Source of the DNA: an uncultured Rubrobacteraceae bacterium
GTDB lineage: Bacteria; Actinomycetota; Rubrobacteria; Rubrobacterales; Rubrobacteraceae
Assembly (NCBI GenBank): GCA_902806085.1
Contig: CADCVH010000042.1
Coordinates: 1 to 38,705 of the forward strand
Reading direction: 5' to 3'
DNA: 38,705 bases
Positions 8,792 through 27,199 of the stretch are shown one piece after another. How positions within the stretch are numbered: the first letter of the stretch is position 1; each line of letters opens with the position of its first letter. A program made the position numbers and the translations under genes. Below the pieces are notes generated by a model. That model saw only the letters and a program-made list of their open reading frames with translations. It made no database searches and was not told the origin of the DNA.

Positions 8792-8851
8792 AGTGTAGTG
8801 ATCCGCCGGATCGTCGGTGTTAAACGACCGAAAATTTCGGGTTAAATCGCA
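8792..8851 (-). promoter_or_regulatory. phoD promoter with three 11-nt PHO-box-like repeats
   Basis: Plus-strand units are GTTAAACGACC (8819-8829), GAAAATTTCGG (8830-8840) and GTTAAATCGCA (8841-8851). The -10 for phoD on the minus strand is TACACT (8792-8797), 21 nt from the repeat block. No -35 consensus is present. The same geometry recurs at five other phosphatase-type promoters in the window. Confidence 0.8.
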
Positions 8852-8905
8852 AAGGTTGTCAGGGGTTCTGGCCCCACCTCCCCGCCGCTACGCCCACGTC
8901 GGCCG

Positions 8906-8942
8906 CCCGGGGACGCCACGGGGACGCCAGCACGTCCCCGGG
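8906..8942. terminator. Strong hairpin in the phoD-cadA intergenic region
   Basis: CCCGGGGACG (8906-8915) and CGTCCCCGGG (8933-8942) form a perfect 10-bp stem. It lies about 160 nt past the cadA stop and could terminate that transcript before the phoD promoter. The rest of 8852-9104 holds no gene that I can recognise; a slightly AT-richer patch at about 8970-9035 is unexplained. Confidence 0.45.
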
Positions 8943-9104
8943 CTCCAGGAGCCGAACGGCGCATTCTCGAAGTGCGCCATGCTTGGGATTGCATGAGTAT
9001 ATGGAGAGCATTTCAGGTTACACACATACGCGCCTGTAGGGTGAGGGTCGGCGGTTGCGCGCCGGCGGGGCTCCTCTCCGGTCTTGCTCTGCGGTGTCTA
9101 CGCT

Positions 9105-11438
9105 TTAAGCATTCCCTTTGCGGAACAGCCTCAGGCCGTTGAGGGTGACGGCGATGGAGGTGCCCATGTCCGCCAGCACCGCGAGCCAGAGCGCCACCAA
9201 CCCGAAGGGGGCGAGGAGCACGAAGAGGCCTTTTATGGCTATCGAGACGGCCACGTTCTGGCGGATGATCCGCTCTGCGGACCGCGAGAGCCTGACGGCC
9301 TCGGCGAGCTTGGGCAGGTCGTCTTGCATGAGCGCTACGTCGGCGGTCTCGAGCGCCACGTCCGTCCCTGCCGCGCCCATGGCGAAGCCGACCGAGGAGG
9401 CGGCGAGCGCCGGGGCGTCGTTGACGCCGTCGCCCACCATGCCGGCCGAGCCGTGCCCGGCGACGAGCCCGCGGACGGCCTGGACCTTCTGTTCGGGCAG
9501 GAGCCGCGCCCGGTAGGAGATCCCGAGCTCCTCCGAGATCCTGCGGGCCGGGGCCTCCGCGTCCCCGGTGAGCATCACGAGCTCTTCCACCCCGGCGCTC
9601 CGCAGCGCCTCTATCGTGGCCCCGGCGTCCGGGCGCACGGCGTCCGCGAGCCCGAAGACCGCCACAGCGCCTCCCTCGTCGCCCAAGATCACCGGCGTCT
9701 CGCCGGCCCCCTCGACCGCCGCGAGCGCCCCCCCGGCGTCCGCAAGCGAGATACCCCTCTCGTCGAAGAGGCGGGGGCTGCCGATCAGGTACCGTTTGCC
9801 GCCGACCTCGCCCTCGGCACCCCTGCCCGCCACCGACCGGAAGCCCGTGACCGGCGGGAGGGTGGAACCGTTTTCCCCGTGGCCTCCGGCCGTGCTGGCC
9901 GTCAGGATCGCGTGCGCCAAAGGGTGCTCGGAGCGCCGTTCGAGCGCCGCGGCGAGCCGCACCGCCTCCGCTTCGCCCGTCCCGTTCAACGCCACCACGC
10001 GCGAGACCACGGGCCGGCCCTCGGTGAGGGTGCCGGTCTTGTCGAAGGCGAGCGCCTTGAGGCGCCCGGCCGCTTCGAGCGCCGCCCCGCCCTTCACGAG
10101 GATGCCGCGCCTGGAGGCGGCGCCTATCCCCGAGACCACCGTGACCGGCGTCGAGATGACGAGCGCGCACGGGCAGGCGATGATGAGAAGCGCCAGCGCC
10201 CGGTAGAACCACTCCCCGAAACCGCCGCCCAAAAGCGGCGGCACAACGGCCAGCAGCAGGGCTGCGGCGACCACTATCGGCGTGTAGACGCGCGAGAAGC
10301 GGTCCACGAACTGCTCGGCGGGGGCCTTCCGGGCCTGCGCCTCCTCCACCAGGCGTATGATCTTTTGAAGCGTCGAGTCCCCGGCCCGCTTCGTCGCCCT
10401 GACGACCAGCCCGCCCGGGCCGTTGAGGGTGCCCGAGAAGACCGCGTCGCCTTGTCCTTTCTCCACGGGCACGCTCTCGCCCGTCACGGGCGACTCGTCC
10501 ACGGCCGAGGTGCCTTCCACGACCTCGCCGTCCACCGCCAACCTCTCCCCGGGCCTGACGATCACCGCATCCCCGACGCCGACCTCGTCCACCGGGACGA
10601 CGACCTCCGCGCTCCCCCTCTGGACGAGGACCTCGTCCGGGGCGAGCCGCACCAGCGCCCGCACCGCGCCCCGGGTCCGGTCTATGGCGTACACCTGCAA
10701 CGCGTTACCGGCGGCGAAGAGCACCACGACCGAGGCCGCCTCGGCCCACTGCCCGATCGCGACCGCGCCCAGCGTGGCCGCGCCCATCAGCACGTTCATG
10801 TCCAAATGACGGGCCCGCAGCCCCGAGAGCGCCGCCCGGAAGATCGGCAACCCGCCGACCGCGATGGCGGCGGCGTAGGCCCCCACCCGCGCCACCTCCG
10901 GCGCGCCCGGGAACCCAAGCGAGAGCGCGAGGCCTAACGCGAACAAGAGGGCCGAGGCGAGCACGGAGACCGCCCTCGGGGTGCGCCAGAACGGGGGCCT
11001 CTCGGCCTCCTCCGTCTCCGCCACGCGATAGCCGGCGCCCCTCACGGCCTCCTCGATCTCCGCGAGCGCGAGGGCGGGCTCGTGCTCGAGGTCCAACCGT
11101 CCGGCGGCGAAGTTCACGGTCGCCCGCCTCACGCCTGGCAGGGCGAAGACGCGCCTCTCCACGGTGGCCGCGCAGCTCGCGCAGTCCATACCCTCGACGC
11201 GCACGACGGTCCTCTCGAAGCCGCCACCGGCAAAGGCCCGCTCGATCACTTCCGGGTTCGCCTCGCGCGTCGTCGGCCACGCCTCCGGCGACGCGGCGTT
11301 CGCCCGGGCCGGTGCCTCGACGCCGGAGCAGCAATCGTCCGCGCAGCCGCCTCCCCCGGCGCGCGCCGGGTCCGGGGTTTCCGGCTCCGGCGCGGGCGCC
11401 TGCCCCAGGACCGGCAGCGTCTTCTTCTGGCGGCTCAC
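9105..11438 (-). CDS. cadA: Heavy-metal P1B-type ATPase (Zn/Cd/Co/Pb exporter)
   Basis: This protein of about 777 residues has an N-terminal Cys-rich stretch (G-C-A-D-D-C-C) and an HMA domain with G-M-D-C-A-S-C, then transmembrane helices, the transport motif C-P-C (in A-C-P-C-A-L-V-I-S-T-P), the phosphorylation site D-K-T-G-T-L-T-E-G, and G-D-G-V-N-D-A-P-A-L. The CPC motif and the D-D-L-P-K-L C-terminal region fit Zn2+/Cd2+/Pb2+ exporters of the CadA/ZntA group. The frame is open much further upstream, but that part overlaps the repressor gene and is not coding. The GTG at 11438 overlaps the repressor stop (GTGA), which sets the start and couples the two genes. Confidence 0.92.
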   Translation of the reverse strand: MSRQKKTLPVLGQAPAPEPETPDPARAGGGGCADDCCSGVEAPARANAASPEAWPTTREANPEVIERAFAGGGFERTVVRVEGMDCASCAATVERRVFALPGVRRATVNFAAGRLDLEHEPALALAEIEEAVRGAGYRVAETEEAERPPFWRTPRAVSVLASALLFALGLALSLGFPGAPEVARVGAYAAAIAVGGLPIFRAALSGLRARHLDMNVLMGAATLGAVAIGQWAEAASVVVLFAAGNALQVYAIDRTRGAVRALVRLAPDEVLVQRGSAEVVVPVDEVGVGDAVIVRPGERLAVDGEVVEGTSAVDESPVTGESVPVEKGQGDAVFSGTLNGPGGLVVRATKRAGDSTLQKIIRLVEEAQARKAPAEQFVDRFSRVYTPIVVAAALLLAVVPPLLGGGFGEWFYRALALLIIACPCALVISTPVTVVSGIGAASRRGILVKGGAALEAAGRLKALAFDKTGTLTEGRPVVSRVVALNGTGEAEAVRLAAALERRSEHPLAHAILTASTAGGHGENGSTLPPVTGFRSVAGRGAEGEVGGKRYLIGSPRLFDERGISLADAGGALAAVEGAGETPVILGDEGGAVAVFGLADAVRPDAGATIEALRSAGVEELVMLTGDAEAPARRISEELGISYRARLLPEQKVQAVRGLVAGHGSAGMVGDGVNDAPALAASSVGFAMGAAGTDVALETADVALMQDDLPKLAEAVRLSRSAERIIRQNVAVSIAIKGLFVLLAPFGLVALWLAVLADMGTSIAVTLNGLRLFRKGNA

Positions 11439-11851: not shown

Positions 11852-11858
11852 CAGTACA

Positions 11859-12008: not shown

Positions 12009-12012
12009 GCTC

Positions 12013-14774: not shown

Positions 14775-16340
14775 CTACGGCAGGAGCACCACCGCGTCGC
14801 CTACCGGACGCTCGCCCGTCGCGTCGGAGGGGCGGGTGACGAGCCTCCGCTCCACCGTCATCCCGGTCGAGCCGCCGCCGTCGAGGTTCACGGCCTCGTC
14901 GGAGCCGAGGGCCTCCATGATGCCCGCGCTCTCCTCGAAGCTCGCACCGACGCTGTAGCCGGGCCTCCTGCCGTCCACGGCGACGAGGAGCAGGTCGCCG
15001 CCCGGCGTCGTTCCGGCGAGCGTGCGCGGGTTGCGGCGCCCGCCGAAGCGGTAGTAGAACTCGGGGTTTTCGGGGTAGACGAAGCCCTCGGCGAACGCGG
15101 TTATCTCCGGCTCGCCGCCTTCGAGAAGCCGCGGCCCCCCGTTGACGACGCCCGTCCCGGCACCGACGCGCGCGCCCTCACCGGAGATGCTCTCGGAGAG
15201 CCGGATCGTCCCTCCGGGCCGGGCGTGGGCGCGGAGCCAGCCGGCGCCTTCCCCGGTGCCGGAGAGTACCGAGCCGCCCGCCGGGATCGGGCCGCCGCGC
15301 TCCTCGCGCAGCGCCGTGACGCGGCCCGAGGCGTCCAGTACGGCCTCGGCGCCCTCGCCGGGCTCGGTGCCCGTACCGAAGAGGGGGGTGAAGAGGATCA
15401 ACTCAGACGAATCCGTGCAGGTGAAGTCGTGTTTGGGGGCTTCGGTGGGCGCGTCCCCGCCCTCGCCGCCGCAGCCCCGGATGAGGCCCGGTTTGCGGTT
15501 CTTGCCGTCCACGAGGCGCGTCGCCCCATCGGAGGACCGGACGGAGAGCCCGTCGGAGAGGGCCGCCACGTCCGCGCCCGCGCCGTCGCCCTCCGGGAGG
15601 ACGAGGCTGGTGCGGCCGTCCACCGCTTCGCTTACGAGGTCGCCTTCGAGCACGGAGATACCGGCCAGGTCCCCCGGCGTGCCGTCGTTTGGGCCGATCA
15701 CGAAGTAGCCGCCGTTTACGGCCGCGAGCGCGCCCGTGCGCGACGAGATGCCCGTCAAGAGCTCCCGCCCGGGCACTACCTCCGTCGCGAGCTCGGGCCC
15801 TAGCGTGCCACCGTAACGGTCGGGATCGACCTTCAGGACGTGGACGACCCACGGACCCGTCGTCTTCCCCCCGTCCTCGCCCGTGTAGACGGTGCGCGTG
15901 CCGGCGTAGCCGTCGGCCGTCAGCCTCGCCCGCAGGGCGTCGGCCCCGGCCTGGGTGGCGGACTTTCCGACGCGGACCAGGTAGCCTGAGGGGCCGTCCG
16001 CCGGGTCGTCGGGGGCGCGGTCCGCGACCTTCTCGGTGCGGGGCCTGTAGCCGTCGGCCCGGAGCCGGGCGGAGATCTCTTGCGACGCGGCGCGGTCCGC
16101 CCCAAAAGCCACGTCCACCGTGTAGAAGTCCCTCCCGGACTCCTCGCCGCGCTCGATGCGGGTGTACGTGACGCCGGGCGTTATCCTTTCGGTCGTCCGG
16201 GTCTCCTTCAGGCCCGGGTTGCCAAGGGGTAGTTCATCCCGGTAGGCGGTGCCGTTCGGGGCGGCGAGGGCCGGGGCCAGGCCTAAAGTGCCCAGGATCA
16301 GGGCGGCCACGACGCAGAGCAGGCCTTTTTGCAGCTTCAT
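14775..16340 (-). CDS. Secreted phosphodiester glycosidase (NAGPA/DUF2233) domain protein with SPOR-like region
   Basis: This protein of about 521 residues has a signal peptide (about 1-27). An N-terminal region (about 60-150) contains two repeats resembling SPOR domains (L-R-A-D-G-Y and L-T-A-D-G-Y). The C-terminal NAGPA domain contains A-A-V-N-G-G-Y-F (about residue 205) and N-L-D-G-G-G-S-T-G-M near the end. NAGPA-type enzymes cleave GlcNAc-phosphodiesters; bacterial members act on exopolysaccharide or wall phosphodiesters. GGAGGGG lies 4 nt before the ATG at 16340. It follows the metallophosphoesterase gene by 17 nt and so probably shares its PHO-type promoter. Confidence 0.82.
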   Translation of the reverse strand: MKLQKGLLCVVAALILGTLGLAPALAAPNGTAYRDELPLGNPGLKETRTTERITPGVTYTRIERGEESGRDFYTVDVAFGADRAASQEISARLRADGYRPRTEKVADRAPDDPADGPSGYLVRVGKSATQAGADALRARLTADGYAGTRTVYTGEDGGKTTGPWVVHVLKVDPDRYGGTLGPELATEVVPGRELLTGISSRTGALAAVNGGYFVIGPNDGTPGDLAGISVLEGDLVSEAVDGRTSLVLPEGDGAGADVAALSDGLSVRSSDGATRLVDGKNRKPGLIRGCGGEGGDAPTEAPKHDFTCTDSSELILFTPLFGTGTEPGEGAEAVLDASGRVTALREERGGPIPAGGSVLSGTGEGAGWLRAHARPGGTIRLSESISGEGARVGAGTGVVNGGPRLLEGGEPEITAFAEGFVYPENPEFYYRFGGRRNPRTLAGTTPGGDLLLVAVDGRRPGYSVGASFEESAGIMEALGSDEAVNLDGGGSTGMTVERRLVTRPSDATGERPVGDAVVLLP

Positions 16341-16357
16341 CTTCCCCTCCCTCCGCA

Positions 16358-17338
16358 CTACGGCGCGAAGTTCTCTTCTATTATCTCCGGCTCGAAGGAG
16401 AAGACCTCTTCATCGCGCCGGTCCACCGTGGCCCGGACCCAGTGGACGTCCGGGCTTCCGAAGGTCTCCACCCGCGTAAAGTTCAGCGGACGTCCCCCGG
16501 AGATGGCCGGCTTGTCTATCCGGAACGTGTGGCTGTCGCCGTGGACGAGGACCACGGGCTTGCCGAAGGCGACGACCTCTTCTTCAAGAGCCTTCTTGAA
16601 CTCCGAAAAGCCGGAGGGCTCGGCGGTGTCCTCCTCGAAGGGGTTCGCCTGGATCACGAGCATGACGGCCGGGCTCCCTTTCTTCCCCGCCTCGTCGAAG
16701 GTCTGCGCCAGCCATTCGAGGTTGGCGGCGTTGCGCGCCCGGTACTCCTCCTCGTTCCCGACGACCGTACCGTCAGGCAGCGTGGTCGGGCGGTTGTTGT
16801 TCGAGCCGACGATGTGGAGCGTGGCGAAGGTCACGCCGCCCCGCTGCCAGCGGGCGTTCTCCGGGTAGTCCTTGTTCTGGCGTTCAAGGTCTATCTCCTT
16901 GCGCCCGAGCGAGTCGTCGTCGGGGAAGAAGACGCCGCGCAGGTAGTCCAGCCGGCCGAGCGGGTCCGCCTCCTCGGGCGTGGGGTTCGGCGGGCGGTGG
17001 CAGTCCGTCCACTCGTTGTCGCCCGGCGTGTAGACCAGCGGGTTCTTCGAGGCCTCAAACCGGCGCAGCTCCTTCTGGTAGACGTCGTCCGTGCAGGCCG
17101 AGGAGCCGCTCTTGACGTCGCCGTCGTGGGCTACAAAGGCGAGCTTCTCGCGGTCGAGCTCGTCGAAGAGCCTCGCGGTCTGTTCTTCCTGGACGGCGTT
17201 GTAGGGGATGTCCCCGATCAGGGCGACGTCGAAGGGACCGCCCTTCCCGGCCCCCGAGGGTTTCGCCCCGGCCGCGGCCGAAACGGAGGCGGTGACGGCC
17301 ACCACGATCAGGACCAACAGCAGACGATTCCTCTTCAA
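16358..17338 (-). CDS. Secreted metallophosphoesterase
   Basis: This protein of 326 residues has a signal peptide (residues about 1-24) and a calcineurin-like phosphoesterase domain. The metal site motifs are G-D-I-P-Y, H-D-G-D (about residue 71), the G-D-N-E-W-T-D motif (about 104) and H-G-D-S-H-T (about 271). The usual G-N-H-E is replaced by G-D-N-E, as in a subset of secreted actinobacterial phosphatases. The TTG at 17338 is chosen because AAGGGGAG sits just upstream and the signal peptide begins cleanly. It is the first gene of a two-gene unit with the NAGPA protein, behind a PHO-box-like promoter. Confidence 0.82.
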   Translation of the reverse strand: MKRNRLLLVLIVVAVTASVSAAAGAKPSGAGKGGPFDVALIGDIPYNAVQEEQTARLFDELDREKLAFVAHDGDVKSGSSACTDDVYQKELRRFEASKNPLVYTPGDNEWTDCHRPPNPTPEEADPLGRLDYLRGVFFPDDDSLGRKEIDLERQNKDYPENARWQRGGVTFATLHIVGSNNNRPTTLPDGTVVGNEEEYRARNAANLEWLAQTFDEAGKKGSPAVMLVIQANPFEEDTAEPSGFSEFKKALEEEVVAFGKPVVLVHGDSHTFRIDKPAISGGRPLNFTRVETFGSPDVHWVRATVDRRDEEVFSFEPEIIEENFAP

Positions 17339-17389
17339 GGTTCTCCCCTTCCGGCCGCCACGCGGCGACACCCGGCTCGCACGCCAGCA

Positions 17390-17449
17390 ACTATAAGGAA
17401 AGGGATGCGTCGGCGGGTTAACTGCCGCGAAAATCTGGGTTAAATGTGG
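17390..17449 (-). promoter_or_regulatory. Metallophosphoesterase promoter with three 11-nt PHO-box-like repeats
   Basis: Plus-strand units are GTTAACTGCCG (17417-17427), CGAAAATCTGG (17428-17438) and GTTAAATGTGG (17439-17449). The minus-strand -10 TATAGT is at 17390-17395, 21 nt away. Confidence 0.8.
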
Positions 17450-17510
17450 CCGGGGCGAAGCCGGGGTAACTCTGCCCCGGCTTCGCCCCGACCACCGTTA
17501 CTGTCGTTGC

Positions 17511-17930
17511 CTAGTCGCTATCCTGCGCATGGGCTGCGGGCACGGACAGGTCCGCGACGACCGGCAGGTGGTCGGAGGCGATGGTACTGGGAACGGATGC
17601 GGCCCTCACCGCCACGTCGGCGTGACGAACACGTAATCGATGCGGCGGGCGGGGTTCTCGGCGCCTATGGTGTACCTATGGTGTACCTATGGTGTACCTA
17701 TGGTGTACCTATGGTGTAGCCGGGGCCCTCGCCGCCGAGGGGCCAGGCGTCATTGTAGCGCTCGTAGAGGGGCGCGAACTCCGGCGCCTCGGGCACGGCG
17801 TTCAGGTCGCCGACGAGGACCTGCGGCTCTTTCACGTCCCCGGTGTGCTCCGTGATGGCGCGGGCCTGGGGCGCCCGCTCCTCAGCTTCGCGCCCGGCGC
17901 GGGCGCCGTCTTCGTGCGCCCACCGGGCTG
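17511..17930 (-). pseudogene. Decayed endonuclease/exonuclease/phosphatase (EEP) family gene, C-terminal part
   Basis: The minus strand encodes the C-terminal half of an EEP enzyme in broken frames: G-D-L-N-A-V-P-E-A-P-E (catalytic Asp and Asn), then G-Y-T-I-G, then A-E-N-P-A-R-R-I-D-Y-V-F-V-T, then S-D-H-L-P-V-V-A-D-L with the catalytic Asp-His pair. Two lesions are visible. A tandem 11-bp expansion (17664-17718) adds 44 nt after G-Y-T-I-G and brings an early TAG. An in-frame TGA at 17606-17608 is followed by a one-base shift before S-D-H-L-P. The 5' half is missing; the sequence joins directly to a PhoD fragment. Confidence 0.8.
17664..17718. repeat. Five copies of an 11-bp tandem repeat inside the EEP pseudogene
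   Basis: CCTATGGTGTA is repeated five times without a mismatch. One copy would restore the reading frame across G-Y-T-I-G-A-E-N-P; four extra copies (44 nt) break it. Confidence 0.95.
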
Positions 17931-18349
17931 ACCTCGCCGCCCACCTCAAAGCGGTAGAAGTACTCGCGCCCGGGCGAGAGATCCCCTACCTCCGGGTGGA
18001 CTGAGTTCCCCAACTCGGGCGTCGCCTTAGCCGTCCCACGCTGGATTATCTTCGAGAAGTTCTCGTCCCGGGCGACCTCGTAGCGCACCGCGTAAGAATG
18101 GTCCCTCGGGATGCCGCCCCAGCCGTCCGCCGCTGTCGGGTTCGTGGAGAGCCTCGTCCACAGCACCGCGCCGTCGGGCTCCGGATCCCCGAAGGCGACG
18201 CCGAGGGCTAACGGGTAGCCCGAGAACGTGGGTTGCGCCACCGCCCGGCCGCTCGTCAACCCGCCGACGCCGAGGGCGAGCGCCGCGGCACCCATCCCCC
18301 CGATCCCGATAAACCTTCCCCGGCTGATCCTCTGGTCTCGACCGCCCAT
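17926..18349 (-). pseudogene. N-terminal fragment of a second PhoD-like alkaline phosphatase
   Basis: About 140 residues match the start of a PhoD enzyme: an export signal with S-R-G-R-F-I-G-I-G-G, then L-A-L-G-V-A-F-G-D-P-E-P-D-G-A-V-L-W-T-R and the end of the Fn3-like domain Y-F-Y-R-F-E-V-G-G-E-V-S-P-V-G. The metallophosphatase domain is absent. At about 17925 the sequence passes into the EEP remnant in another frame, so a deletion has probably joined two neighbouring genes. The Tat motif lacks the second arginine. The start is taken at ATG 18349; upstream in-frame codons exist but carry no conserved features. A PHO-like repeat block is still present upstream. Confidence 0.75.
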
Positions 18350-18491
18350 CTCTCCGTGTGTGCCCAAAACGCCCCACCGGTCGTACCCAGAACCCCAACC
18401 GAACGCAGCCCGTAACCAGACACCCGATACCCCTCCAACGCAGCTACCAAAATCCTGCAAATCTAGGGTGCAAAACGAACCAACAACCGTT

Positions 18492-18524
18492 GTTTCAGAC
18501 GGATAGAACCCAGGTTAATCCTGG
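18492..18524 (-). promoter_or_regulatory. PHO-box-like repeats upstream of the PhoD fragment (probably decayed promoter)
   Basis: Plus-strand units are GTTTCAGACGG (18492-18502), ATAGAACCCAG (18503-18513) and GTTAATCCTGG (18514-18524). At the conserved distance the minus strand reads CACCCT (18465-18470), a poor -10, in keeping with the pseudogene state. A displaced TAGATT (18460-18465) is an alternative. Confidence 0.5.
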
Positions 18525-18776: not shown

Positions 18777-20468
18777 CTACCCCTCTTTGATGATCCTCGG
18801 GTCCGTGCTCGGGTCCGGGGCCTCGAAGGGCGAGGGCAGGCCGTCGATGTGGTCTTCCAGGGCGTCGAGGTCGCTGCCCAGGGTCGTCGGGTTCTGGCCC
18901 TCCTTGAAGACCGTAAAGCCGTCGCCGCCTGTCGCTATAAAGCTGTTGGCCGCGACGGTGTAGGTGGCGCCTCGGTCCAGCGGGGCCCCGTCCGGCAGGG
19001 TGACGGAGGTGATGCGCGACCCGGCGGGGTTCTGGGAATTGTAGGAGAACTCCAGGCCGCTTATCTGGAGGATGCGGGTCCTCGGGTTGCCGTTGCTGTC
19101 CGTCTGGAACTGCTGTTCCAGGACGCGGTAGACCTGCTCGCCGGTGAGTTCCATCCTCGCCACCTGGTTGTCGAAGGGCTGGACGGCGAAGAGCTCGCCG
19201 TAGGTCACCTCGCCAGAGGCTATGTCAGCCCTGATGCCGCCGGGGTTCATGAACGCGAAGTCCGCGCCCGCGAAGCCCCGCTGGGCGTCGGCGATCAGGT
19301 CGCCGAGGGCGCTCTCGCCGGCGGGTGTCGCGGTGCGGGTGACGTTCTCGGCCGCGGTCCCGACGACGCGGTTGGCGACGGGCGCTATCTGCTCCTCGTA
19401 GCCGGCGACGAGGGCGTCGACCTCGGGGTCGGGCTGGACGGCATCCTGAAAGGTGGTGACGACCTCGGCCGAGGAGGAGACCACGTCCTTGGTCTTCCGG
19501 TCGATCCTGAGGTCGACGTCGTCTATGGCCGCGCCGAAGCTGAGGGCCTGCACGAGCAGCTTGCCGTCCACCCGGGTGTTCATGAAGGTGTGGCTGTGCC
19601 CGCCGATTACCGCGTCCACGGCACCGTTCATCTGCTGGGTCTCGGAGACGACCTCGCCCGTTGCGGCAGCGCCCGACTGGACGCCACCGGAGTGGGCCAG
19701 CACGACAATTGCCTCAACGCCCTTCTTCCTGAGCTCGGGCACGTAGCGGTTGACGGTGTCCGACATGTCGGGGAAGTCGAACGGGGCGACGGCGTCGGGG
19801 ACGACGATCTGCTCGGTCTCGGGCGTCACGACCCCGATAAAGCCGACCTTCGCGTCGTCGCGCTCGATGATGGTGTACGGCGGCAGCACGGGGTTTTGCG
19901 TGCCCGCCTCGACGGTGTTGGCGGCTATGTACGGAAAGTCCGTGCCGGGAAAGCCCGCGTCGGAGGTGTTGACGGGCTCCCCGTCGGGGCCGTCCTTGAA
20001 CTGCTTGCCGTCGGAGCGCTGCCCCCCGTCGAGCAGGCGGAACATCTCGTCCCCACCCTCGTCGAACTCGTGGTTGCCCAGGGTGCCGAGGTCGAGGCCC
20101 ATCTCGTTCATGGCGTAGACGGAAGGCTCGTCGTGGAAGTAGCTGGAGATGAGGGGCGAGCCGCCGACGGAGTCGCCCGCGTGCAGCCTGATGGTGCCCG
20201 CGGGGTTCTCCCGCTCCTCGCGGTCGAGGTAGGCGGCCAGGTATTCGGCGCCGCCGACGGGACGGCCGTCTATGGCCCGCGGGGATTGCAGCCAGCCGTG
20301 GAAGTCGTTGAAGCCCAGGATCTGGACGTCCGCGATCCTGCCCTCGGGCACCGGCTTGCCCGGCTTCGGCCTGGACTCCGCGCCCGAAGCCAGTATCGTC
20401 AAGAACGCAAGCATGAAAGCCAGCGCAAGCGTGATCGGCAAAAGCGCCGAACGCAGCATCCCTGCCAT
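18777..20468 (-). CDS. Secreted bifunctional 5'-nucleotidase / UDP-sugar hydrolase family protein
   Basis: This protein of 563 residues has a signal peptide (about 1-32), an N-terminal metallophosphatase domain (F-N-D-F-H-G at about 54, H-A-G-D-S, G-N-H-E-F-D at about 133, G-G-H-S-H) and a C-terminal substrate domain (A-L-G-D-L-I-A-D, N-P-G-G-I-R-A-D-I, and a F-N/Y-S-pattern near 475). Such enzymes release phosphate from extracellular nucleotides, and many also act on UDP-sugars or cyclic nucleotides. The ATG has GGAGG 6 nt upstream. It is a single-gene unit with its own PHO-like promoter and terminator. Confidence 0.92.
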   Translation of the reverse strand: MAGMLRSALLPITLALAFMLAFLTILASGAESRPKPGKPVPEGRIADVQILGFNDFHGWLQSPRAIDGRPVGGAEYLAAYLDREERENPAGTIRLHAGDSVGGSPLISSYFHDEPSVYAMNEMGLDLGTLGNHEFDEGGDEMFRLLDGGQRSDGKQFKDGPDGEPVNTSDAGFPGTDFPYIAANTVEAGTQNPVLPPYTIIERDDAKVGFIGVVTPETEQIVVPDAVAPFDFPDMSDTVNRYVPELRKKGVEAIVVLAHSGGVQSGAAATGEVVSETQQMNGAVDAVIGGHSHTFMNTRVDGKLLVQALSFGAAIDDVDLRIDRKTKDVVSSSAEVVTTFQDAVQPDPEVDALVAGYEEQIAPVANRVVGTAAENVTRTATPAGESALGDLIADAQRGFAGADFAFMNPGGIRADIASGEVTYGELFAVQPFDNQVARMELTGEQVYRVLEQQFQTDSNGNPRTRILQISGLEFSYNSQNPAGSRITSVTLPDGAPLDRGATYTVAANSFIATGGDGFTVFKEGQNPTTLGSDLDALEDHIDGLPSPFEAPDPSTDPRIIKEG

Positions 20469-20526: not shown

Positions 20527-20586
20527 AGAATAGCAGCCTACGGCTCAAAGAGTGTTTCACGTGCATCAACTTTGCGTAAACGAATC
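20527..20586 (-). promoter_or_regulatory. 5'-nucleotidase promoter with three 11-nt PHO-box-like repeats
   Basis: Plus-strand units are GTTTCACGTGC (20554-20564), ATCAACTTTGC (20565-20575) and GTAAACGAATC (20576-20586). The minus-strand -10 TATTCT is at 20527-20532, 21 nt away. Confidence 0.75.
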
Positions 20587-20624: not shown

Positions 20625-22871
20625 CTACTTCGAGAGCGTGAGGACGGGCGGGTCGTGGTCCGAGACGTGGTGGCCGTCCGTGGGGTCGTCCCGCTCGAAG
20701 TAGTCGTTGTCGAAGTGGGCGTAGCGGAAGTCGCCGGCCCTGTTCTTGAGGCCCTGGGTGACGAGGACGTGGTCGAGGGTCTGCAGCCTCCCCTGGAAGG
20801 CGAAGCTGTAGCGCCCCTGCTCGGGCGCCGTGTCCCAGAGGTTGTCCAGCGTCGTCGTGCCGCCTTCGAGCGTCCGGAGCGCCGACTCGTCCTCGAAGGC
20901 GTTGAGGTCCCCGGCGACGATAGAGCGCTTGCCGGCGTCTTCGAGCTCCGCGACCCTGTCGCGCACGAAGGCGGCCTGCGCCTCGCGGCACGCGTCTGGG
21001 GCGGCCTTGGAGGCGAAGTGGTTGGAGAAGACGGTGAACCCGCCGAAACCCCGAGCGGTGACCTCCACCGCGAGCGGCGGCCGGTCGAAGAGCCCGCCGG
21101 GGACGTCGGAGCAGTCGAGGCCTTCCGGCGCGGTCGCGGCCTTGCCGTACTGCGTAACGCCCTCGACCTTCACCCCGTCCTCGATCAGAAAACCGACGTC
21201 TATGCCGCGGGAGTCGTTGCCCTCTTCGAGGTGGGCCGTGTAGCCCCCGACTGAGGCGGCGAGCGTCCGCAGCGTGGCGAGGTCGTAGACTTCCTGGACG
21301 GCGACGACCTCGGGGCGCTCCAGCCGGTCGTCTATCGCGTCGGTGAGGCGGGCCGTCTTCTCGTCGAACTCGTCTTGACTGACGTTGCCGCCGTCCAGCG
21401 CGCCACCGACGGGGAAGTAGTTCTCGACGTTGAACGAGGCCACGCGGAACTGCCTGCTCTCGGCCGGTTCGAGTTCTTCGTAGGGGTAGGCGACGCCCGT
21501 ATCGGTCACGGCCGGAAGGTCGCCGGGCTGGACCATGATGCGGTAGTTCTCGAAAGAGAAGCCCATCGGGCCAACGACGCCCTCAACCGTGTCGAATAGG
21601 TCGGCGTCGACCTCGGTCGTGGAGCCGTCGGGGTCGCGGTAGGGGTTGCCCGGGTCGCCGGCCCCCGCGTCGGCGTCCGTGGCGATGAGGGCGGGTTCGG
21701 TGTCCGTGCGGAAGACGCGGTCCCGATCGGTGCCGGGCGTCATGAACAGCTCGCCGAACTTGTTGGTGCCGCCGGAGTTGGCGGTGCCGACGGCGAGGCG
21801 CGCGCGCATGCCTTCGAGGGTCTCGTAGTACGGACGGGAGGCCGGGTCCTGGGCCTCCGCCCGCGCGGCGTCTATCTCGACCGGCGCCGGCACGGGGACC
21901 GAGCCGACCTCCTCGGGCTCCCGGTCAAAGGTCTCGGAGATCATGGTCAGGCCGAACTTCTCGCCCACGCGGCCGTTCACGCGCACCACGTCGCCGGGCT
22001 TGTAGGCCGCGCGGTCGCGGACGAAGCCGACAAAGACGCCCTCGGAGGTGTCCGGGTCGGCGTCCGCGTCGGCCGCCTCTTCCTGGACGAAGATGCCGGC
22101 GTCCTCGGGGAAGCGGCGGATGGTGTTGCCGGAGCCGAAGCCCGCCCCGACCTCGTCGTCTATCCCCGTGACGACGCCCTCGACGGTGACGGTCCGGCCC
22201 GCGAGGGGCGACCCGTCGCCGGGGCCCTGGACGGCGTGTATCTTCGTGATCTCAGGCCCGGGCTCGCCCCCACCGCCGGAGAGGTTCTGCGGCCCCCCCG
22301 CCTTCGGCCCTGCAAAGTCCGCGGCGTTGTCGTCGGTGTCCTGCCGGCCGTCGCTCTTTCGCTCGAAAGAGCTGTCGCCGTTGGCGGTCGGCGTGGTGAT
22401 ACCGGTCCCTTCGCGGCAGGGGCTGTTCGGGGAGCCCACGCCGTCTATGACGCCGCCCGAGGCATCCACGAGTCGGGCACCGCTCGCGTTGGACGCCTGA
22501 AAGTCGGTGAAGCCGGTCGAGTAGGCCCGGTCGCCCGGCACGGCGCCGGAGTAGCCGCCGCTCCCGGAGTTGGTGAACAGGTAGTGGTCGCCAGGCTTGA
22601 GGGCCGTATCGGCCGGGACCGTGGCCCGGTCCGAGGGGCCGCCGGACGCGGAGGCGCAGCCCTGGAGCTTGTAGCCCGAGATGTCCACGTCTTTCGTGGA
22701 GGTGTTGAGCAGTTCAACGAACTCGTCGTTGCCGCCGGCCGGACCGCGGGCGCGCAGCTCCGAGATCACGACGCCGCTCGGGGACGCCAGCGCCGGCGCG
22801 AGCGAGAGGAGCAGCGCGGCCAACGACAGCACGATACCTGATACGACCGCGGGCACACGAAGACCGTACAC
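20625..22871 (-). CDS. Secreted lamin-tail domain / endonuclease-exonuclease-phosphatase protein (probable extracellular nuclease)
   Basis: This protein of about 748 residues has a signal peptide (about 1-30), a lamin-tail domain (I-S-E-L-R...D-E-F-V-E-L-L-N, about 33-150), an OB-fold-like segment (about 205-330), and a C-terminal EEP domain (about 475-748) with F-N-V-E-N-Y, V-A-V-Q-E-V, G-D-L-N-A-F and H-H-V-S-D-H-D-P-P-V. This layout is that of secreted DNases that use extracellular DNA as a phosphate source. The GTG at 22871 is chosen over an upstream TTG because GGAGG lies 6 nt before it and the signal peptide begins there. Confidence 0.88.
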   Translation of the reverse strand: MYGLRVPAVVSGIVLSLAALLLSLAPALASPSGVVISELRARGPAGGNDEFVELLNTSTKDVDISGYKLQGCASASGGPSDRATVPADTALKPGDHYLFTNSGSGGYSGAVPGDRAYSTGFTDFQASNASGARLVDASGGVIDGVGSPNSPCREGTGITTPTANGDSSFERKSDGRQDTDDNAADFAGPKAGGPQNLSGGGGEPGPEITKIHAVQGPGDGSPLAGRTVTVEGVVTGIDDEVGAGFGSGNTIRRFPEDAGIFVQEEAADADADPDTSEGVFVGFVRDRAAYKPGDVVRVNGRVGEKFGLTMISETFDREPEEVGSVPVPAPVEIDAARAEAQDPASRPYYETLEGMRARLAVGTANSGGTNKFGELFMTPGTDRDRVFRTDTEPALIATDADAGAGDPGNPYRDPDGSTTEVDADLFDTVEGVVGPMGFSFENYRIMVQPGDLPAVTDTGVAYPYEELEPAESRQFRVASFNVENYFPVGGALDGGNVSQDEFDEKTARLTDAIDDRLERPEVVAVQEVYDLATLRTLAASVGGYTAHLEEGNDSRGIDVGFLIEDGVKVEGVTQYGKAATAPEGLDCSDVPGGLFDRPPLAVEVTARGFGGFTVFSNHFASKAAPDACREAQAAFVRDRVAELEDAGKRSIVAGDLNAFEDESALRTLEGGTTTLDNLWDTAPEQGRYSFAFQGRLQTLDHVLVTQGLKNRAGDFRYAHFDNDYFERDDPTDGHHVSDHDPPVLTLSK

Positions 22872-22932
22872 GTCGAACCTCCACTTTTCGTTGCGACCTT
22901 TTGCCAAACCGGGCGGCTCCTCGACCCATCAT

Positions 22933-22991
22933 AAATTACCAGAGGACTCGTCGCCGTTGTTTCATACGGGCAAAACCCGCGCCAAACGTCC
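22933..22991 (-). promoter_or_regulatory. Nuclease promoter with three 11-nt PHO-box-like repeats
   Basis: Plus-strand units are GTTTCATACGG (22959-22969), GCAAAACCCGC (22970-22980) and GCCAAACGTCC (22981-22991). A minus-strand -10 TAATTT lies at 22933-22938, 20 nt away. The second and third units are weaker than elsewhere. Confidence 0.65.
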
Positions 22992-23062: not shown

Positions 23063-24067
23063 CTACACGCCGGCGAGGCAGGCCTCTGATGCCCGGGCGG
23101 CGAGGCGGGCGCCGGTCTTGCCCTTCGCGGCCTCCTTGCCGAGCACCTCTTCGAGCCGGTCGGGGAAGTTGGTGAACATGCCGTCGACGCCGACGGAGAT
23201 GAGCTTCTCCATCTCCGGCGTTTCGTTGACGGTGTAGGGGTGGACGTCCAGGCAGCGGGCGTGGGCGGCGTCCACGAGGGGTTTGTCCACGTCGGACTTC
23301 GAGGGGCCAATACCTACGGCGTAGGACGCGGTCGCGTCCAGCTTTGCCTGTATCGTCCCGCTCGTCTCGGAGCCTGAGAAGAGCTGGATGAGGGGGAGGG
23401 ACGGGTCGAGGGCGTGGACCTTCTGCAGGCTGGCGGGGGAGAAGGATTGGATCAGGACCTGCCACTTGTCCGCAGCCGGCTTCGTCAACCCGTACTCGTC
23501 CATGAGGCGCAGCAGCTCCTCCTCCATGCCCGGCGCGGACTCGGGGCTCTTGGTCTCTATGTAGTAGTTGGTGCTCTTGCGGTACTCCTGGAAGACCTCT
23601 TCGAGCGTCGGGATCCTCAAGCCCACGTACTCGGGCTGCGCGTACTGCGGGTAGGCCTGGTTGAACCAGGTCCCGACGTCGCACGTCTTGATCTGGGCGA
23701 GCGTCTTCTCGCGCACGAGCCCGGTGCAGTCGCCCGGCGCGGACTCGGCCGTCGGGCGCGCCGTCCTGTTCAGCGTCTCGTCGTGGAGCACCACGAGCAC
23801 GCCGTCTCGGGTGAGCTGGAGGTCCTGCTCGATGTAATCCGCGCCCATCTTCAGCGCGAGGTCGTAGGCCGGGATGGTGTGCTCCGGCGCGTACCCGGAC
23901 GCCCCCCTGTGCCCGACGTTCAACACCGGCGCGTCCTCCGCCGGCTTCTTGGCCGCCGACGCCGGCCCGGCGATGAGCAGCGCGGCGGCGAGCACCGCGG
24001 CGGCGAGCACCGCCGCAAGGACCGCCGCGAGCGCCATCGCGAAGATTCCCGACCTCACGTTGTTCAT
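23063..24067 (-). CDS. glpQ: Secreted glycerophosphodiester phosphodiesterase
   Basis: This protein of 334 residues has a long, alanine/leucine-rich signal peptide (about 1-38) and a GDPD TIM barrel: V-G-H-R-G-A-S-G-Y-A-P-E-H-T (about residue 52), E-Q-D-L-Q-L-T-R-D-G-V-L-V-V-L-H-D (catalytic Glu/Asp/His, about 80-95), Y-I-E-T-K-S-P and I-Q-S-F-S. It hydrolyses glycerophosphodiesters (phospholipid head groups, possibly teichoic acids) to glycerol-3-phosphate plus alcohol. The ATG has GGGAGG upstream and lies 3 nt after the esterase-like gene, with which it forms an operon. The signal peptide core contains a 15-bp tandem duplication. Confidence 0.92.
   Translation of the reverse strand: MNNVRSGIFAMALAAVLAAVLAAAVLAAALLIAGPASAAKKPAEDAPVLNVGHRGASGYAPEHTIPAYDLALKMGADYIEQDLQLTRDGVLVVLHDETLNRTARPTAESAPGDCTGLVREKTLAQIKTCDVGTWFNQAYPQYAQPEYVGLRIPTLEEVFQEYRKSTNYYIETKSPESAPGMEEELLRLMDEYGLTKPAADKWQVLIQSFSPASLQKVHALDPSLPLIQLFSGSETSGTIQAKLDATASYAVGIGPSKSDVDKPLVDAAHARCLDVHPYTVNETPEMEKLISVGVDGMFTNFPDRLEEVLGKEAAKGKTGARLAARASEACLAGV
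23982..24011. repeat. 15-bp tandem duplication in the glpQ signal-peptide coding region
   Basis: GCGGCGGCGAGCACC occurs twice head to tail (23982-23996, 23997-24011), which lengthens the hydrophobic core in frame. Confidence 0.85.
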
Positions 24068-24070
24068 CCC

Positions 24071-25225
24071 TTACCTCCCAGTCCGTAGTTGTCCGTTCTC
24101 CACGCCCAGCGCGACCACGCGCGTCACCTGGCCGGCGCTGAAGTTGTCGTCGCTCTGCAAGAGCAGCGTCCGCCTCCCGCCCGGCAGCCGGGGCCCGAGC
24201 GCCAGGCTCTCGTAGTTGTCCAGCAGCGGGTTCGGCTGTGTACCCGGCGTCGTCGCGCCGCCCGTCGGGCAGTTCGCCACGTCCACCAGCAACTCCTTCT
24301 CCACGGGCTCGAGGCCCGGCGCCGCGAGGCTCGGCTCGTCGGAGACGTCCTCGGCGCCGTCGAGGGAGACGCGGAAGACCCGCACCGTGTTCCCGACGCC
24401 GGACCGGAAGCCCCGCTCCAGCACCAGAAGCCCGTCCTCCGAGAGCGCGACGATCTCGACGACCCCCAGCCCCGGCTCGGTGAGGTAGAAGAACTCCTCG
24501 ACCGGCCGGAACCCTCCCGGGTCGCGGTCCTCGTAGCGCAGGATGCGGATGCGGTCGCCGCCATCGGCGGTCTCCCCGTCCGCGAGGAGGAAGCCCTCGT
24601 TCGCGGTAAACAGGCTGCGCCCGTTCGGGCTCAACGAGAGGCTCTCGAACGTCTGGTTACGTTGCCCTTCGCCCCCCGGCGCGACCTCGAACTTCTGGGG
24701 CACGGGCAGTTCCTCCAGGAGGTTGCCGTCGAGGTCGAAGCGCCGGATCGAGGGTTCCGTCTCGGAGGAGGCGAGCAGGTCGCCCCTGCGGGTGAGCACC
24801 AGGCCCTCGCCATCGAAGTCGGAGGCGGTGAGAGGCCGGCCGTCAGCGTTCCTCAGGGTGGTGACGTCCAGGATCTCGGGCGTGCCGAGGTGCTCTTTTA
24901 CCGGAATTCGCAGCGTGTAGAAGCGGGCCTCGGAGGCGGCGGTCGGGCCATTGTCCACGAGGCTGTAGTAGGTGCCGTGGCGTCCCCCGTAGGCCAGGGC
25001 GGAGAGGCCGCCGACGCTCGTGCCCTCGTAGGTCCGTTTGTTGAGGGCGTCTGAGAACCCGAGGAAATCCACGCCGGCGGCGCAGTCCGGGGCCTCCGAA
25101 CCCGGCTGGGCCGCGGTCGCATATCCCGGCACCGCGAACAGCGACGCGTAGGCGGCCAGGATGGCGACGAGCAGCGCCGCGGGTAGCCTTGCGTCCAGGG
25201 ACCTTGCTCGATAGTTCCGGGTCAT
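24071..25225 (-). CDS. Secreted esterase-like activity of phytase family protein
   Basis: This protein of 384 residues has a signal peptide (about 1-38) and a beta-propeller-like domain of the phytase-like esterase family (PF13449). Patterns include G-L-S-A-L-A-Y, L-V-D-N-G-P-T, F-D-G-E-G-L-V, E-S-L-S-L-S-P-N-G-R-S-L-F-T-A-N-E-G, and N-Y-E-S-L-A-L-G-P. Members are predicted extracellular phosphatases or phytases; the exact substrate is unproven. The ATG has GAGAGGAG upstream. It is the first gene of an operon with glpQ (3-nt gap) and has a PHO-like promoter about 165 nt upstream. Confidence 0.82.
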   Translation of the reverse strand: MTRNYRARSLDARLPAALLVAILAAYASLFAVPGYATAAQPGSEAPDCAAGVDFLGFSDALNKRTYEGTSVGGLSALAYGGRHGTYYSLVDNGPTAASEARFYTLRIPVKEHLGTPEILDVTTLRNADGRPLTASDFDGEGLVLTRRGDLLASSETEPSIRRFDLDGNLLEELPVPQKFEVAPGGEGQRNQTFESLSLSPNGRSLFTANEGFLLADGETADGGDRIRILRYEDRDPGGFRPVEEFFYLTEPGLGVVEIVALSEDGLLVLERGFRSGVGNTVRVFRVSLDGAEDVSDEPSLAAPGLEPVEKELLVDVANCPTGGATTPGTQPNPLLDNYESLALGPRLPGGRRTLLLQSDDNFSAGQVTRVVALGVENGQLRTGR

Positions 25226-25270
25226 GCTATCGCTCCTCTCGGGCGTTCGGTGGGGAGTAACGCCCCCGCC

Positions 25271-25294
25271 GGGGCCGGGGCCGGGGCCGGGGCC
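25271..25294. repeat. Four GGGGCC hexamers in the leader of the esterase-like gene
   Basis: GGGGCC is repeated four times on the plus strand, inside the 5' leader of the esterase-like gene (template strand). Four G4 runs could form a G-quadruplex. Confidence 0.7.
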
Positions 25295-25396
25295 AGGGCA
25301 CCCGCGCCGGTCACGGCCGCGAGCCCGTCAGAAATTTGCGTCTGGAGGGCCCCACCCGCATCCCCCTTCCGGGTGACCGTCGGACAACTGCGGTAG

Positions 25397-25456
25397 AGCG
25401 TACTGATTCTCAAAGGAGCGCGGGTTACATGCGGGTAAATTCTGCGTAAAAGGTTG
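25397..25456 (-). promoter_or_regulatory. Esterase-glpQ promoter with three 11-nt PHO-box-like repeats
   Basis: Plus-strand units are GTTACATGCGG (25424-25434), GTAAATTCTGC (25435-25445) and GTAAAAGGTTG (25446-25456). The minus-strand -10 TACGCT is at 25397-25402, 21 nt away. Confidence 0.75.
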
Positions 25457-25481
25457 CGCAGGGTCCCGCCGTTTCAGACGT

Positions 25482-25514
25482 CGGGGCGTCCCTCCGACTC
25501 GGAGGGACGCCCCG
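25482..25514. terminator. Perfect 14-bp hairpin after phoX
   Basis: CGGGGCGTCCCTCC (25482-25495) and GGAGGGACGCCCCG (25501-25514) pair fully around a 5-nt loop, 30 nt past the phoX stop and just before the next PHO-like promoter. No T-tract follows on the minus strand. Confidence 0.7.
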
Positions 25515-25544
25515 TTGGTTCCGCGAGGTTGGTTTTGCGCGTCC

Positions 25545-27053
25545 CTATGCCAGGGGGACGCCGAGGCGGTCGTAGGCGGCGGCCTCGAGCTGGCTCATGC
25601 CGTTACGCTCTGCGGCCTCGGAGAGCTCGCCCGAGACCTCCGGGCGCAGCCTCTTCGGGGGCTCGGCCGTTGCCATCTGGCGCTGGCGGCCGGCGTCGGG
25701 CCGTTTGAAGGGGCCCCAGATCGCGTACGTTATGCCGGGGCTCTGGATGTTGACGAAGAACGTCTGACCGTCGGGCGAGAAGGTCGGGCCCGCGAACTCC
25801 GAGCGCTCGCCGGGGTCGCCGGCCGGGACGCCGGGGGAGCTCTGGAACGGGACGCGGTTGTTCGCGAAGACGTAGGAGCGGCCCTCCGGGGTGAAGCCGA
25901 TGATCCTGTTGCCGAAGTCGCCGTCCTCGGCAACCCACAGATCGCCCCAGGGGGTGACGGTGATGTTGTCCGGGCTCTGGAGGCGGTTCACGTCCGTGCC
26001 CTCGTAGAAGAGCTCGATGGTGTTTGTCGAGGGGAGGTAGCGGAAGATCTGGCCCAGGCGACGCTCACCGCCGGCCGTGTCGTCGAACCAGAAGGCCCCG
26101 CCCTTGAAGAACGCGCCCTCCAGGCGGTTAAAGCGGGTGGCGTCGATGGCCAGGGCGTCGTCGCGCGGGGTCTCGGGGTTCACCGTGATCCAGCGCATCG
26201 TGAACCGCTGGCCCTGCTCTATAAAGTCCGCGTCGCGCGGCGCCTCGTCGAGCTTGGCGACCTGCAGGGTGCCGCCCTGCTGCAAAGCGCCCGGACGGGC
26301 GCGGCGGTTGTTGGGCAGGAAGCGGTAGAGGTAGCTGCGGCGGGTGTCGAGGTTCGGATCGTCGTCGTCGATCAGGCCCTCGAAGTCGTCCTCGGTGAGG
26401 TAGGCGATCCCCGTCCTTGGGTCTATGTCCACGGCCTCGTGGGAGAACCGGCCCATCTCCCTGATCGGGGTCCTGGACAACTCGTTCTCGGGGTCCCTGG
26501 GGTCGACCTCGAAGACGTAGCCGTGCTCCTGCTCGCCCGTGGTCGTGCGGTCCTCCTCGCAGGTCAGCCAGGTGCCCCAGGGGGTGCCGCCGCCCGCGCA
26601 GTTGTTGACCGACCCCGAGGAGGTGACGTAGGACCGGATCACCCGCCGGTCCGGCCCCACGACGACGGCGGTCGTGCCGCCGACCTGGGTCGAGTCGTAG
26701 GGGTTCCTGCCCTCCAGCGGGTTCGCGTCCGACGTCCTTAGCTCGTGGTTGCGAACGAGGATGGTTCTGTCGCCCCTACCGGCGATGGCAACCATGCCGT
26801 CGTGGTCGCCGGGGACCGGCGTGCCGTCCGAGAGCTTCGAGCCCTCGCGCGAGATCACACGATATTTGAAGCCTTCGGGAAGGTCCAGCATACCCCTGGG
26901 GTCCGACTGCGTCGGGCCGTAGCCGGCCCGGCCCCCGCTCTGCTGCGCCAGCGCCTCCCCGGAGCCGAACAGCAGGGCCGCCGCCCCGAGTCCCCCCGCC
27001 CCCAGAAAACTCCTCCTGCTGACCCGCCTGTCCCAGTTGCCGCCGATGCTCAA
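25545..27053 (-). CDS. phoX: PhoX-type alkaline phosphatase (DUF839)
   Basis: This protein of about 502 residues has a canonical Tat signal, R-V-S-R-R-S-F-L-G (about residues 11-19), then the PhoX pattern in order: L-D-L-P-E-G-F-K-Y-R-V-I-S, D-G-M-V-A, L-V-R-N-H-E, T-C-E-E-D, G-R-F-S-H-E-A, L-T-E-D, P-D-N-I-T-V-T-P, and F-S-P-D-G-Q-T-F-F-V-N. PhoX enzymes are Ca2+/Fe3+-dependent phosphomonoesterases induced by phosphate limitation. The TTG at 27053 is chosen because GGAGGAGGG sits 7 nt upstream and the Tat signal begins there; the longer open frame runs through the promoter. Confidence 0.92.
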   Translation of the reverse strand: MSIGGNWDRRVSRRSFLGAGGLGAAALLFGSGEALAQQSGGRAGYGPTQSDPRGMLDLPEGFKYRVISREGSKLSDGTPVPGDHDGMVAIAGRGDRTILVRNHELRTSDANPLEGRNPYDSTQVGGTTAVVVGPDRRVIRSYVTSSGSVNNCAGGGTPWGTWLTCEEDRTTTGEQEHGYVFEVDPRDPENELSRTPIREMGRFSHEAVDIDPRTGIAYLTEDDFEGLIDDDDPNLDTRRSYLYRFLPNNRRARPGALQQGGTLQVAKLDEAPRDADFIEQGQRFTMRWITVNPETPRDDALAIDATRFNRLEGAFFKGGAFWFDDTAGGERRLGQIFRYLPSTNTIELFYEGTDVNRLQSPDNITVTPWGDLWVAEDGDFGNRIIGFTPEGRSYVFANNRVPFQSSPGVPAGDPGERSEFAGPTFSPDGQTFFVNIQSPGITYAIWGPFKRPDAGRQRQMATAEPPKRLRPEVSGELSEAAERNGMSQLEAAAYDRLGVPLA

Positions 27054-27128
27054 GACGTATTCCCTCCTCCAACCGAAATCGCGCGAGCGCTTTCGGTCCT
27101 CTGCGCGTGGTCGTTCCAACGGGGGGAA

Positions 27129-27199
27129 AGTATAGGGAGGGACACGCGTTTGCAGGTTAACCAACCGAAAACTTTAGGTTAAATCCGAGAAACCCTAAG
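27129..27199 (-). promoter_or_regulatory. phoX promoter with 11-nt PHO-box-like repeats
   Basis: Plus-strand units are GTTAACCAACC (27156-27166), GAAAACTTTAG (27167-27177) and GTTAAATCCGA (27178-27188), with a fourth, weaker unit GAAACCCTAAG (27189-27199). The minus-strand -10 TATACT is at 27129-27134, 21 nt away. Confidence 0.82.

Follow-up and report, generated by a model that had tools for sequence, protein, structure and literature searches.

The 38,705-nt window analysed here, contig CADCVH010000042.1 (C42) of the 4.41-Mb, 133-contig genome of an uncultured Rubrobacteraceae bacterium, contains six sites on its minus (coding) strand at which three contiguous 11-nt units are followed by a TAnnnT hexamer, without a visible -35 element. 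These blocks are very probably Pho boxes, that is, operators for a predicted PhoP/RegX3-type regulator of the OmpR family which would switch on phosphorus scavenging in the Rubrobacteraceae. Judged by its sequence, this is a Pho regulon of a known kind; what appears unusual is the placement of the array, fixed one unit further upstream than in the boxes compared. For a deep-branching actinobacterial family this would mean a phosphate regulon, predicted here, whose operator is of the cyanobacterial/Bacillus type and not the Streptomyces type. The exact one-unit shift raises the question whether one activator family can change between two modes of polymerase recruitment when it is displaced by one turn along the DNA.

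Six blocks and their box sequence

All six blocks and the -10-like hexamers named in the original prediction were found when the window coordinates were checked (Table 1). From the last TTTAAC- or TGAAAC-like core to the hexamer we recounted the same 21 nt in five of the six sites and 20 nt at the site of the LTD-nuclease gene, and the lack of a visible -35 held on recheck. Measured from the end of the 33-nt block, the hexamer follows after 18 nt (offset +18 in the following), or after 17 nt at the LTD site in its best register.

The consensus of the three units is nATTTAACCCA / GAGTTTnCnCG / CnTTTAACCYn. Their core is TTTAACC, and all of 50 sites have A or T, never C, at position 6 of unit 1. 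In 82 promoters the units hold 13.5, 10.6 and 12.1 bits of information, compared with 3.4 bits in the 11 positions upstream of unit 1 and 0.63 bits in the 11 positions on the promoter side. PHO boxes are described as direct repeats of two or more 11-nt units, in each of which seven positions are well conserved and four less so (PMC4415409); the blocks, with three units, show this build. A PHO box should also stand near Pho genes, above all the pst operon, and such genes do follow the blocks: pst-phoU in the genome of the window, and pstS, phnD, phoA and a ugpA-like gene in relatives.

Leave-one-out matrices were run across the whole window in both orientations (77,298 positions). Five of the six blocks rank at or just behind the training sites, the omitted block taking rank 5 for phoD, 5 for the open reading frame (ORF) 16358-17371, 9 for the 5'-nucleotidase, 4 for the phytase/GDPD unit (glpQ) and 5 for phoX. 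The same scan proposed a seventh, previously unlisted site, the decayed box of Table 1. A matrix of 50 sites was furthermore run over 248 kb, comprising the window and stretches picked for phoU, regulators and weak matches. Here the named sites scored 15.4-45.6 bits versus a maximum of 7.9 bits in reversed sequence; some places of 11-15 bits were also seen and are left without interpretation. On the leave-one-out ranks and the reversed control, we rejected a chance origin of the blocks.

A fixed distance to the -10

Two models were built. R1 is strict, covers block plus -10 and derives from five sites, the LTD site being left out since MAFFT inserted gaps when all six were aligned; R2 describes the 33-nt block alone, from 43 sites of the family. 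Because R1 includes the -10 and sites were partly chosen for it, the 50 matrix sites are biased on spacing (46 of them at +18), whereas R2 and the matrix scan use the block without -10 information. A separate set comprises 33 family sites around R2 matches, with a score of at least 24 and without an R1 listing at E<=1 (five non-family loci dropped). TAnnnT occurs at +18 in 20 of these and at +29 in 4, with at most one at any other offset; in the +29 cases a fourth unit is followed by 18 nt and TATACT.

The full set comprises 108 distinct family sites with a matrix score of at least 24 (duplicates removed by sequence, six loci dropped). Many of these promoters are orthologous and hence not all independent. 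TAnnnT stands at +18 in 82, at +29 in 6 and at +7 in none, other offsets averaging 0.8%. Eight sites have it at +20, perhaps partly because a single hexamer can overlap itself. Of the 59 sites on which the matrix was not trained, 37 have it at +18. The score cut-off excludes the LTD site and the 18521 site of the window as well as the pstS box described below (19.8). Because the -10 is 18 nt behind the last unit, with the start expected 6-7 nt after the -10, the last two units would be centred at -41.5, taking the hexamer as the usual -12 to -7.

Regulon members in the genome of the window

With R1, the genome yielded the five training sites and then matches of E 0.66 or worse, which suggested a box confined to the window; further sites found with R2 and the 50-site matrix overturned this. 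R2 listed 12 places at E<=10, weak ones included (150 of 368 first-look candidates were scored). Five lie in the window (E 4.5e-6 to 0.06), the others on contigs C3, C102, C115 (two, divergent), C83 and C101 (two), with E 0.1 to 1.7. Outside the window, the genes behind them are phoD-like on C3 (cut by the contig end) and twice on C101, phoX on C115 and a TIM-barrel gene of the AP_endonuc_2 family on C83; the C115 gene divergent from phoX and a small ORF on C102 could not be assigned. Thus eight of the 12 places precede identified genes of the phosphatase, nucleotidase or phosphodiesterase type (phoD, phoX, 5'-nucleotidase, phytase/GDPD), and a ninth precedes ORF 16358-17371 with its NAGPA-domain neighbour.

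The matrix scan adds a phoD box on C129 and, at the phoU locus on C132, a four-unit pstS box, CGTTTAACCTC GATTTAGCCTG GAGTTTACATA ACTGCAACTAA, followed by 18 nt and TATCAT. The operon behind it reads pstS-pstC-pstB-phoU (the intervening pstA lies outside the scan), its PhoU being below the NCBIfam cut-off and above that of Pfam. The claim that the blocks are operators of a Pho regulon, for which boxes at pstS, ugp and phoR-phoP genes had been named as support, agrees with this box and with those upstream of pstS, phnD and a ugpA-like permease (a match below cut-off) in relatives. The search of the whole genome with a model, also part of that proposal, did list phosphatase-type targets, but the pstS box is absent from its list at E<=10. 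At phoR-phoP the expectation failed: the best PhoP/PhoR-like pair (locus L183) has no site of at least 11 bits.

Two candidate members are unexpected. The TIM-barrel gene (2216-3253 in locus L194, from C83) has counterparts at L247, L251, L258 and L272, and at L256 by ORF size only. In several family genera it has a three- or four-unit Pho box, and the L272 copy shows a sub-cut-off match to CbiR; it is a possible new member of the regulon. The second candidate is the gene divergent from phoX, which has its own box (4839-5561 in L191, on C115; likewise L084, L086 and L260). In L084, the sole relative copy scanned, it encodes RTX calcium-binding repeats; the ORF in the genome of the window matched nothing in NCBIfam or Pfam. 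PhoX enzymes require calcium, and this need may explain the pairing of phoX with an RTX gene.

Occurrence in the Rubrobacteraceae

Box, targets and fixed spacing are found family-wide in the sequences compared, block and spacing being common to at least ten genera. R1 gave a match at E<=1 in 30 of 60 genomes, all but one in the family of the window. R2, run over 99 genomes with stricter filters and at most 72 candidates scored per genome, found the box at E<=0.01 in 23 of 39 family genomes versus none of 60 from other families (best there 0.031). By Pfam, NCBIfam and homology, the box-linked genes encode PhoD, PhoX, PhoA, 5'-nucleotidase, LTD-nuclease, exo-endo-phosphatase, GDPD, phytase-like and type I phosphodiesterase proteins. 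In relatives they also include PstS, PhnD (above the NCBIfam cut-off) and a permease that matches UgpA best, though below cut-off. Altogether 66 of the 108 family sites precede homologues of genes from phosphorus-related families and 6 precede homologues of ORF 16358-17371; these counts are descriptive, as the homology reference set was built from box-linked genes.

Several points weigh against the reading as Pho boxes. The LTD site is weak, ranking 792 by its block and 87 when the -10 is included; in its favour are the better boxes upstream of orthologous LTD-nuclease genes in two relatives (G006 and G013, the latter with its hexamer at +20). In the genome of the window, only the four best sites of C42 have an R2 E below 0.05, the rest ranging from 0.06 to 1.7, and neither the pstS nor the C129 box was listed at E<=10. 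The restriction to the family is partly built in, because 20 of the 23 family genomes at E<=0.01 supplied R2 training sites. Three genomes (G002, G011, G060) gave no R2 box at E<=1, and two more (G021, G022) gave none with R2 and weak ones with R1. Likewise, 49 of the 108 sites train the matrix, and training sites were picked partly for their -10. Seven of the 108 stand at box-linked ORFs of unclear role and 29 lack a homology match (one of these, L034, is PhoX by family search), and some boxes precede the TIM-barrel or RTX-repeat gene, neither of which has a known role in phosphate supply. Finally, the genome holds ten Trans_reg_C matches besides the candidate regulator discussed below, a second regulator (C102) also matches RegX3 best, though less well, and no box was seen at the candidate's own gene pair (L183; no site of at least 11 bits).

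Comparison with known boxes

The cyanobacterial Pho box is described as CTTAACCT, in which 3-bp linkers join three repeats of 8 bp (PMC1906773, PMC11126600). The SphR/PhoB box of cyanobacteria shares with ours three tandem repeats of period 11, the TTAA core and a place upstream of phosphatase and pst genes. Identity between the window PhoD and its cyanobacterial counterparts is 40-45%. We inspected 11 cyanobacterial phoD loci: five have triple arrays with TAnnnT at +7 and a sixth has an array with CAATCT at +7; the remaining five lack a clear array, and one of these has a weak array with TACTGT at +8. These arrays end 7 nt before the -10, in contrast to 18 nt in the Rubrobacteraceae, and so lie one unit closer; the spacing is that of phoD promoters only, and four of the loci (L102-L105) look related in sequence. 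By the Rubrobacter matrix, several of the arrays are outscored by another position in their own locus. In R2 and pattern scans of ten cyanobacterial genomes only few weak matches appeared, and in one scan the reversed control was not clearly exceeded.

The PhoP sites of Bacillus are TT[A/T]ACA repeats, which resemble the boxes here in their period of 11 and a TTAAC-like core. In 26 TTWACA arrays from nine Bacillaceae genomes (two of 32 listed places without a locus were dropped), the commonest TAnnnT offset is +7 (7 of 26), most arrays being without a clear offset. Five are at +18, one of them counted at both offsets; by eye, four of these five show a further TTAATA unit that brings the array to +7. 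The pho box of E. coli PhoB, described as lying 10 bp upstream of the -10 (PMC1906773), is alike in its tandem direct repeats of period 11 and its -10 TAnnnT/A, and differs in its core and distance.

The Streptomyces PHO box is given as GTTCACC-N4 (PMC4415409, PMC6988585). It has 11-nt direct repeat units and comes from the same phylum, but its core is unlike the TTTAACC of the Rubrobacteraceae, as the original prediction had said. From their sequence, the boxes would belong to the cyanobacterial/Bacillus type of operator and not to the Streptomyces type. In four genomes of the same phylum, 30 sites with a GTTCACC pair showed no preferred -10 offset. Putative activator boxes have been described just upstream of the -35 (PMC7244524), and the one-unit shift may be common to Actinobacteria at large. 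Among the literature matches listed in a limited search, none described a Rubrobacter Pho regulon and none paired 'pho box' with 'Rubrobacter'.

The geometry known from E. coli and cyanobacteria, where some 8-10 bp separate the last repeat from the -10 and the block is at +7, was seen in none of the 108 family sites, as opposed to 82 at +18. Since the offset is +18 here versus +7 in cyanobacterial phoD and Bacillaceae promoters, 10 bp in E. coli and 8 bp in the boxes of the SARP family, the array of the Rubrobacteraceae appears to sit one 11-nt unit upstream of all these. This difference would vanish if the box were of the E. coli kind with an unrecognisable extra unit in the spacer. Boxes of the E. 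coli and SARP types do occupy the spacer, and PHO box units are reported to be degenerate at times (PMC4415409). Yet the 11 positions beside the block hold next to no information in the 82 promoters (0.63 bits versus 13.5, 10.6 and 12.1 within the units), and four-unit sites keep 18 nt after their fourth unit. We consider a hidden unit unlikely.

Proposed mode of activation and candidate regulator

If the blocks are Pho boxes, DNA-binding domains would line up on them head to tail, one on each 11-nt unit, so that a promoter carries three and in some cases four. The promoter would be of the sigma-70 type with a -10 and no visible -35, which fits dependence on an activator. Phosphate starvation, we infer, activates the regulator, which in its phosphorylated form would contact sigma region 4 like a class II activator. 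It had been proposed that the activator replaces recognition of the -35. The block does overlap the -35 position; replacement goes beyond this, and a class II-like sigma contact seems likelier than the arrangement of E. coli PhoB, because the boxes compared are all one 11-nt unit closer to the -10 than the block. Belief and doubt are evenly balanced for the fuller scenario. In it, the Rubrobacteraceae kept a TTTAACC Pho box and shifted the array upstream by a single 11-bp unit, roughly a helical turn, so that the site nearest the promoter, occupied elsewhere, is vacant. PhoP would then act as a class II activator at -41.5 and not bound in the spacer as in E. coli, Bacillus and cyanobacteria, the sigma contact fixing the spacing throughout the regulon.

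Among the 11 Trans_reg_C matches of the genome, a response regulator on contig C118 (10234-10995 of locus L183, minus strand) is the best candidate for binding the box. Of the solved structures, RegX3 comes closest to it (E 1.6e-60); matches to YycF, MtrA, RpaB and PhoB models are all below cut-off. The neighbouring kinase has HAMP and HisKA domains, with PAS matches and likeness to WalK, PnpS and PhoR below the cut-offs. At a cut-off of 1e-70, set to show near copies only, the regulator occurs with 80-100% identity in all 24 family genomes searched and none of 15 other genomes passes; this conservation alone does not show binding.

Other regulators with 11-nt repeats have to be weighed against the PhoP/RegX3 type. 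The boxes could belong to a GlnR-like nitrogen regulator of the OmpR family, described to bind repeats of the form gTnAC-n6-GaAAC (PMC10704036): the period is the same, its GTnAC/GAAAC half-sites look much like unit 3 in the variants TGAAAC/TGTAAC, and a regulator of the genome (L001) looks by eye to have a degenerate receiver. GlnR boxes of Actinobacteria have nitrogen targets, however, whereas the targets identified here are phosphorus genes (pstS, phnD, phoA, phoD, phoX), with not one nitrogen gene among them, and a GlnR box is accordingly quite improbable. Even less probable is an activator of the SARP/AfsR kind. SARPs are described to use 11-bp direct repeats and to overlap PhoP sites in Streptomyces, and two HTH-AAA-TPR regulators are encoded in the window at 29017-31494 and 33136-35511; but a SARP box stops 8 bp short of the -10, the afs box being centred at -29.5 compared with -41.5 for class II activators (PMC10936776), while TAnnnT occurs here at +7 in none, at +8 in one and at +18 in 82 of the 108 sites. 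By Pfam, moreover, both regulators have HTH_31-type and not OmpR-type domains. Targets and geometry led us to reject the GlnR and SARP identities. That the blocks are functionless promoter sequence shared by descent is scarcely credible: close relatives do share several sites as orthologous promoters, but block and spacing are also the same at non-homologous genes of a single genome and recur in at least ten family genera, with an unconserved spacer in between.

Features of the window

The features of the window are collected in Table 1.

Table 1. Predicted Pho boxes of the window and associated genes (window positions; units 1-3 in coding direction; spacer, nt from block end to hexamer)
Feature	Position	Strand	Units 1-3	Spacer	-10 hexamer	Support	Gene or remark
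phoD Pho box	8816-8848	-	GATTTAACCCG AAATTTTCGGT CGTTTAACACC	18	TACACT, 8792-8797	R2 E 7.3e-5 (R2 training site)	phoD
phoD	6741-8732	-				Pfam PhoD + PhoD_N
Pho box upstream of ORF 16358-17371	17414-17446	-	CATTTAACCCA GATTTTCGCGG CAGTTAACCCG	18	TATAGT, 17390-17395	R2 E 6.0e-5 (training site)	ORF 16358-17371
ORF 16358-17371	16358-17371	-				Box and ORF conserved in several relatives	NAGPA-domain gene 14775-16358 comes next
Decayed Pho box	18489-18521	-			CACCCT in place of TAnnnT	15.4 bits	upstream of phoD N-terminal remnant
5'-nucleotidase Pho box	20551-20583	-	TCGTTTACGCA AAGTTGATGCA CGTGAAACACT	18	TATTCT, 20527-20532	R2 E 0.06 (training site)	5'-nucleotidase, 18777-20468
Weak LTD Pho box	22956-22988	-	ACGTTTGGCGC GGGTTTTGCCC GTATGAAACAA	17	TAATTT, 22933-22938	16.8 bits	LTD/exo-endo-phosphatase, 20625-22907
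Phytase/GDPD (glpQ) Pho box	25421-25453	-	CCTTTTACGCA GAATTTACCCG CATGTAACCCG	18	TACGCT, 25397-25402	R2 E 4.5e-6 (training site)	phytase-like esterase, 24071-25225; GDPD, 23063-24067
phoX Pho box	27153-27185	-	GATTTAACCTA AAGTTTTCGGT TGGTTAACCTG	18	TATACT, 27129-27134	R2 E 1.1e-4 (training site)	phoX, 25545 to a start inside 27164

The label metallophosphoesterase, given to the gene behind the box at 17417, had to be dropped: for ORF 16358-17371, Pfam and NCBIfam gave no family, and nothing in the PDB scored below E 0.38. The ORF listed for phoX (25545-27164) overlaps its own box and -10, and therefore the real start should be further in. Downstream of the decayed box lies the phoD remnant, ORF 17882-18460 (PhoD_N), followed by nuclease-like sequence (by eye) and an 11-nt tandem repeat near 17.67-17.71 kb; the whole stretch 17450-18521 (-) looks like a decayed fusion carrying a decayed Pho box.

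A second PhoX spans two overlapping frames at 27287-28941 (-), with its N-terminal part in 27640-28941 and its C-terminal part in 27287-28267, and is frameshifted or misassembled; no box was seen upstream of it in the window scans. The two regulators named above in connection with SARPs, of like HTH_31/NB-ARC/TPR build and both on the minus strand, adjoin the phosphorus cluster. The best named matches of the window PhoD are from Rubrobacter or Rubrobacteraceae (87% in a metagenome-assembled genome, 68% in R. marinus). Outside the family they are mostly cyanobacterial (40-45%), with one from Actinomadura (44%), and some of the phoD genes at these loci (L102-L115) also have TTTAA-type boxes.

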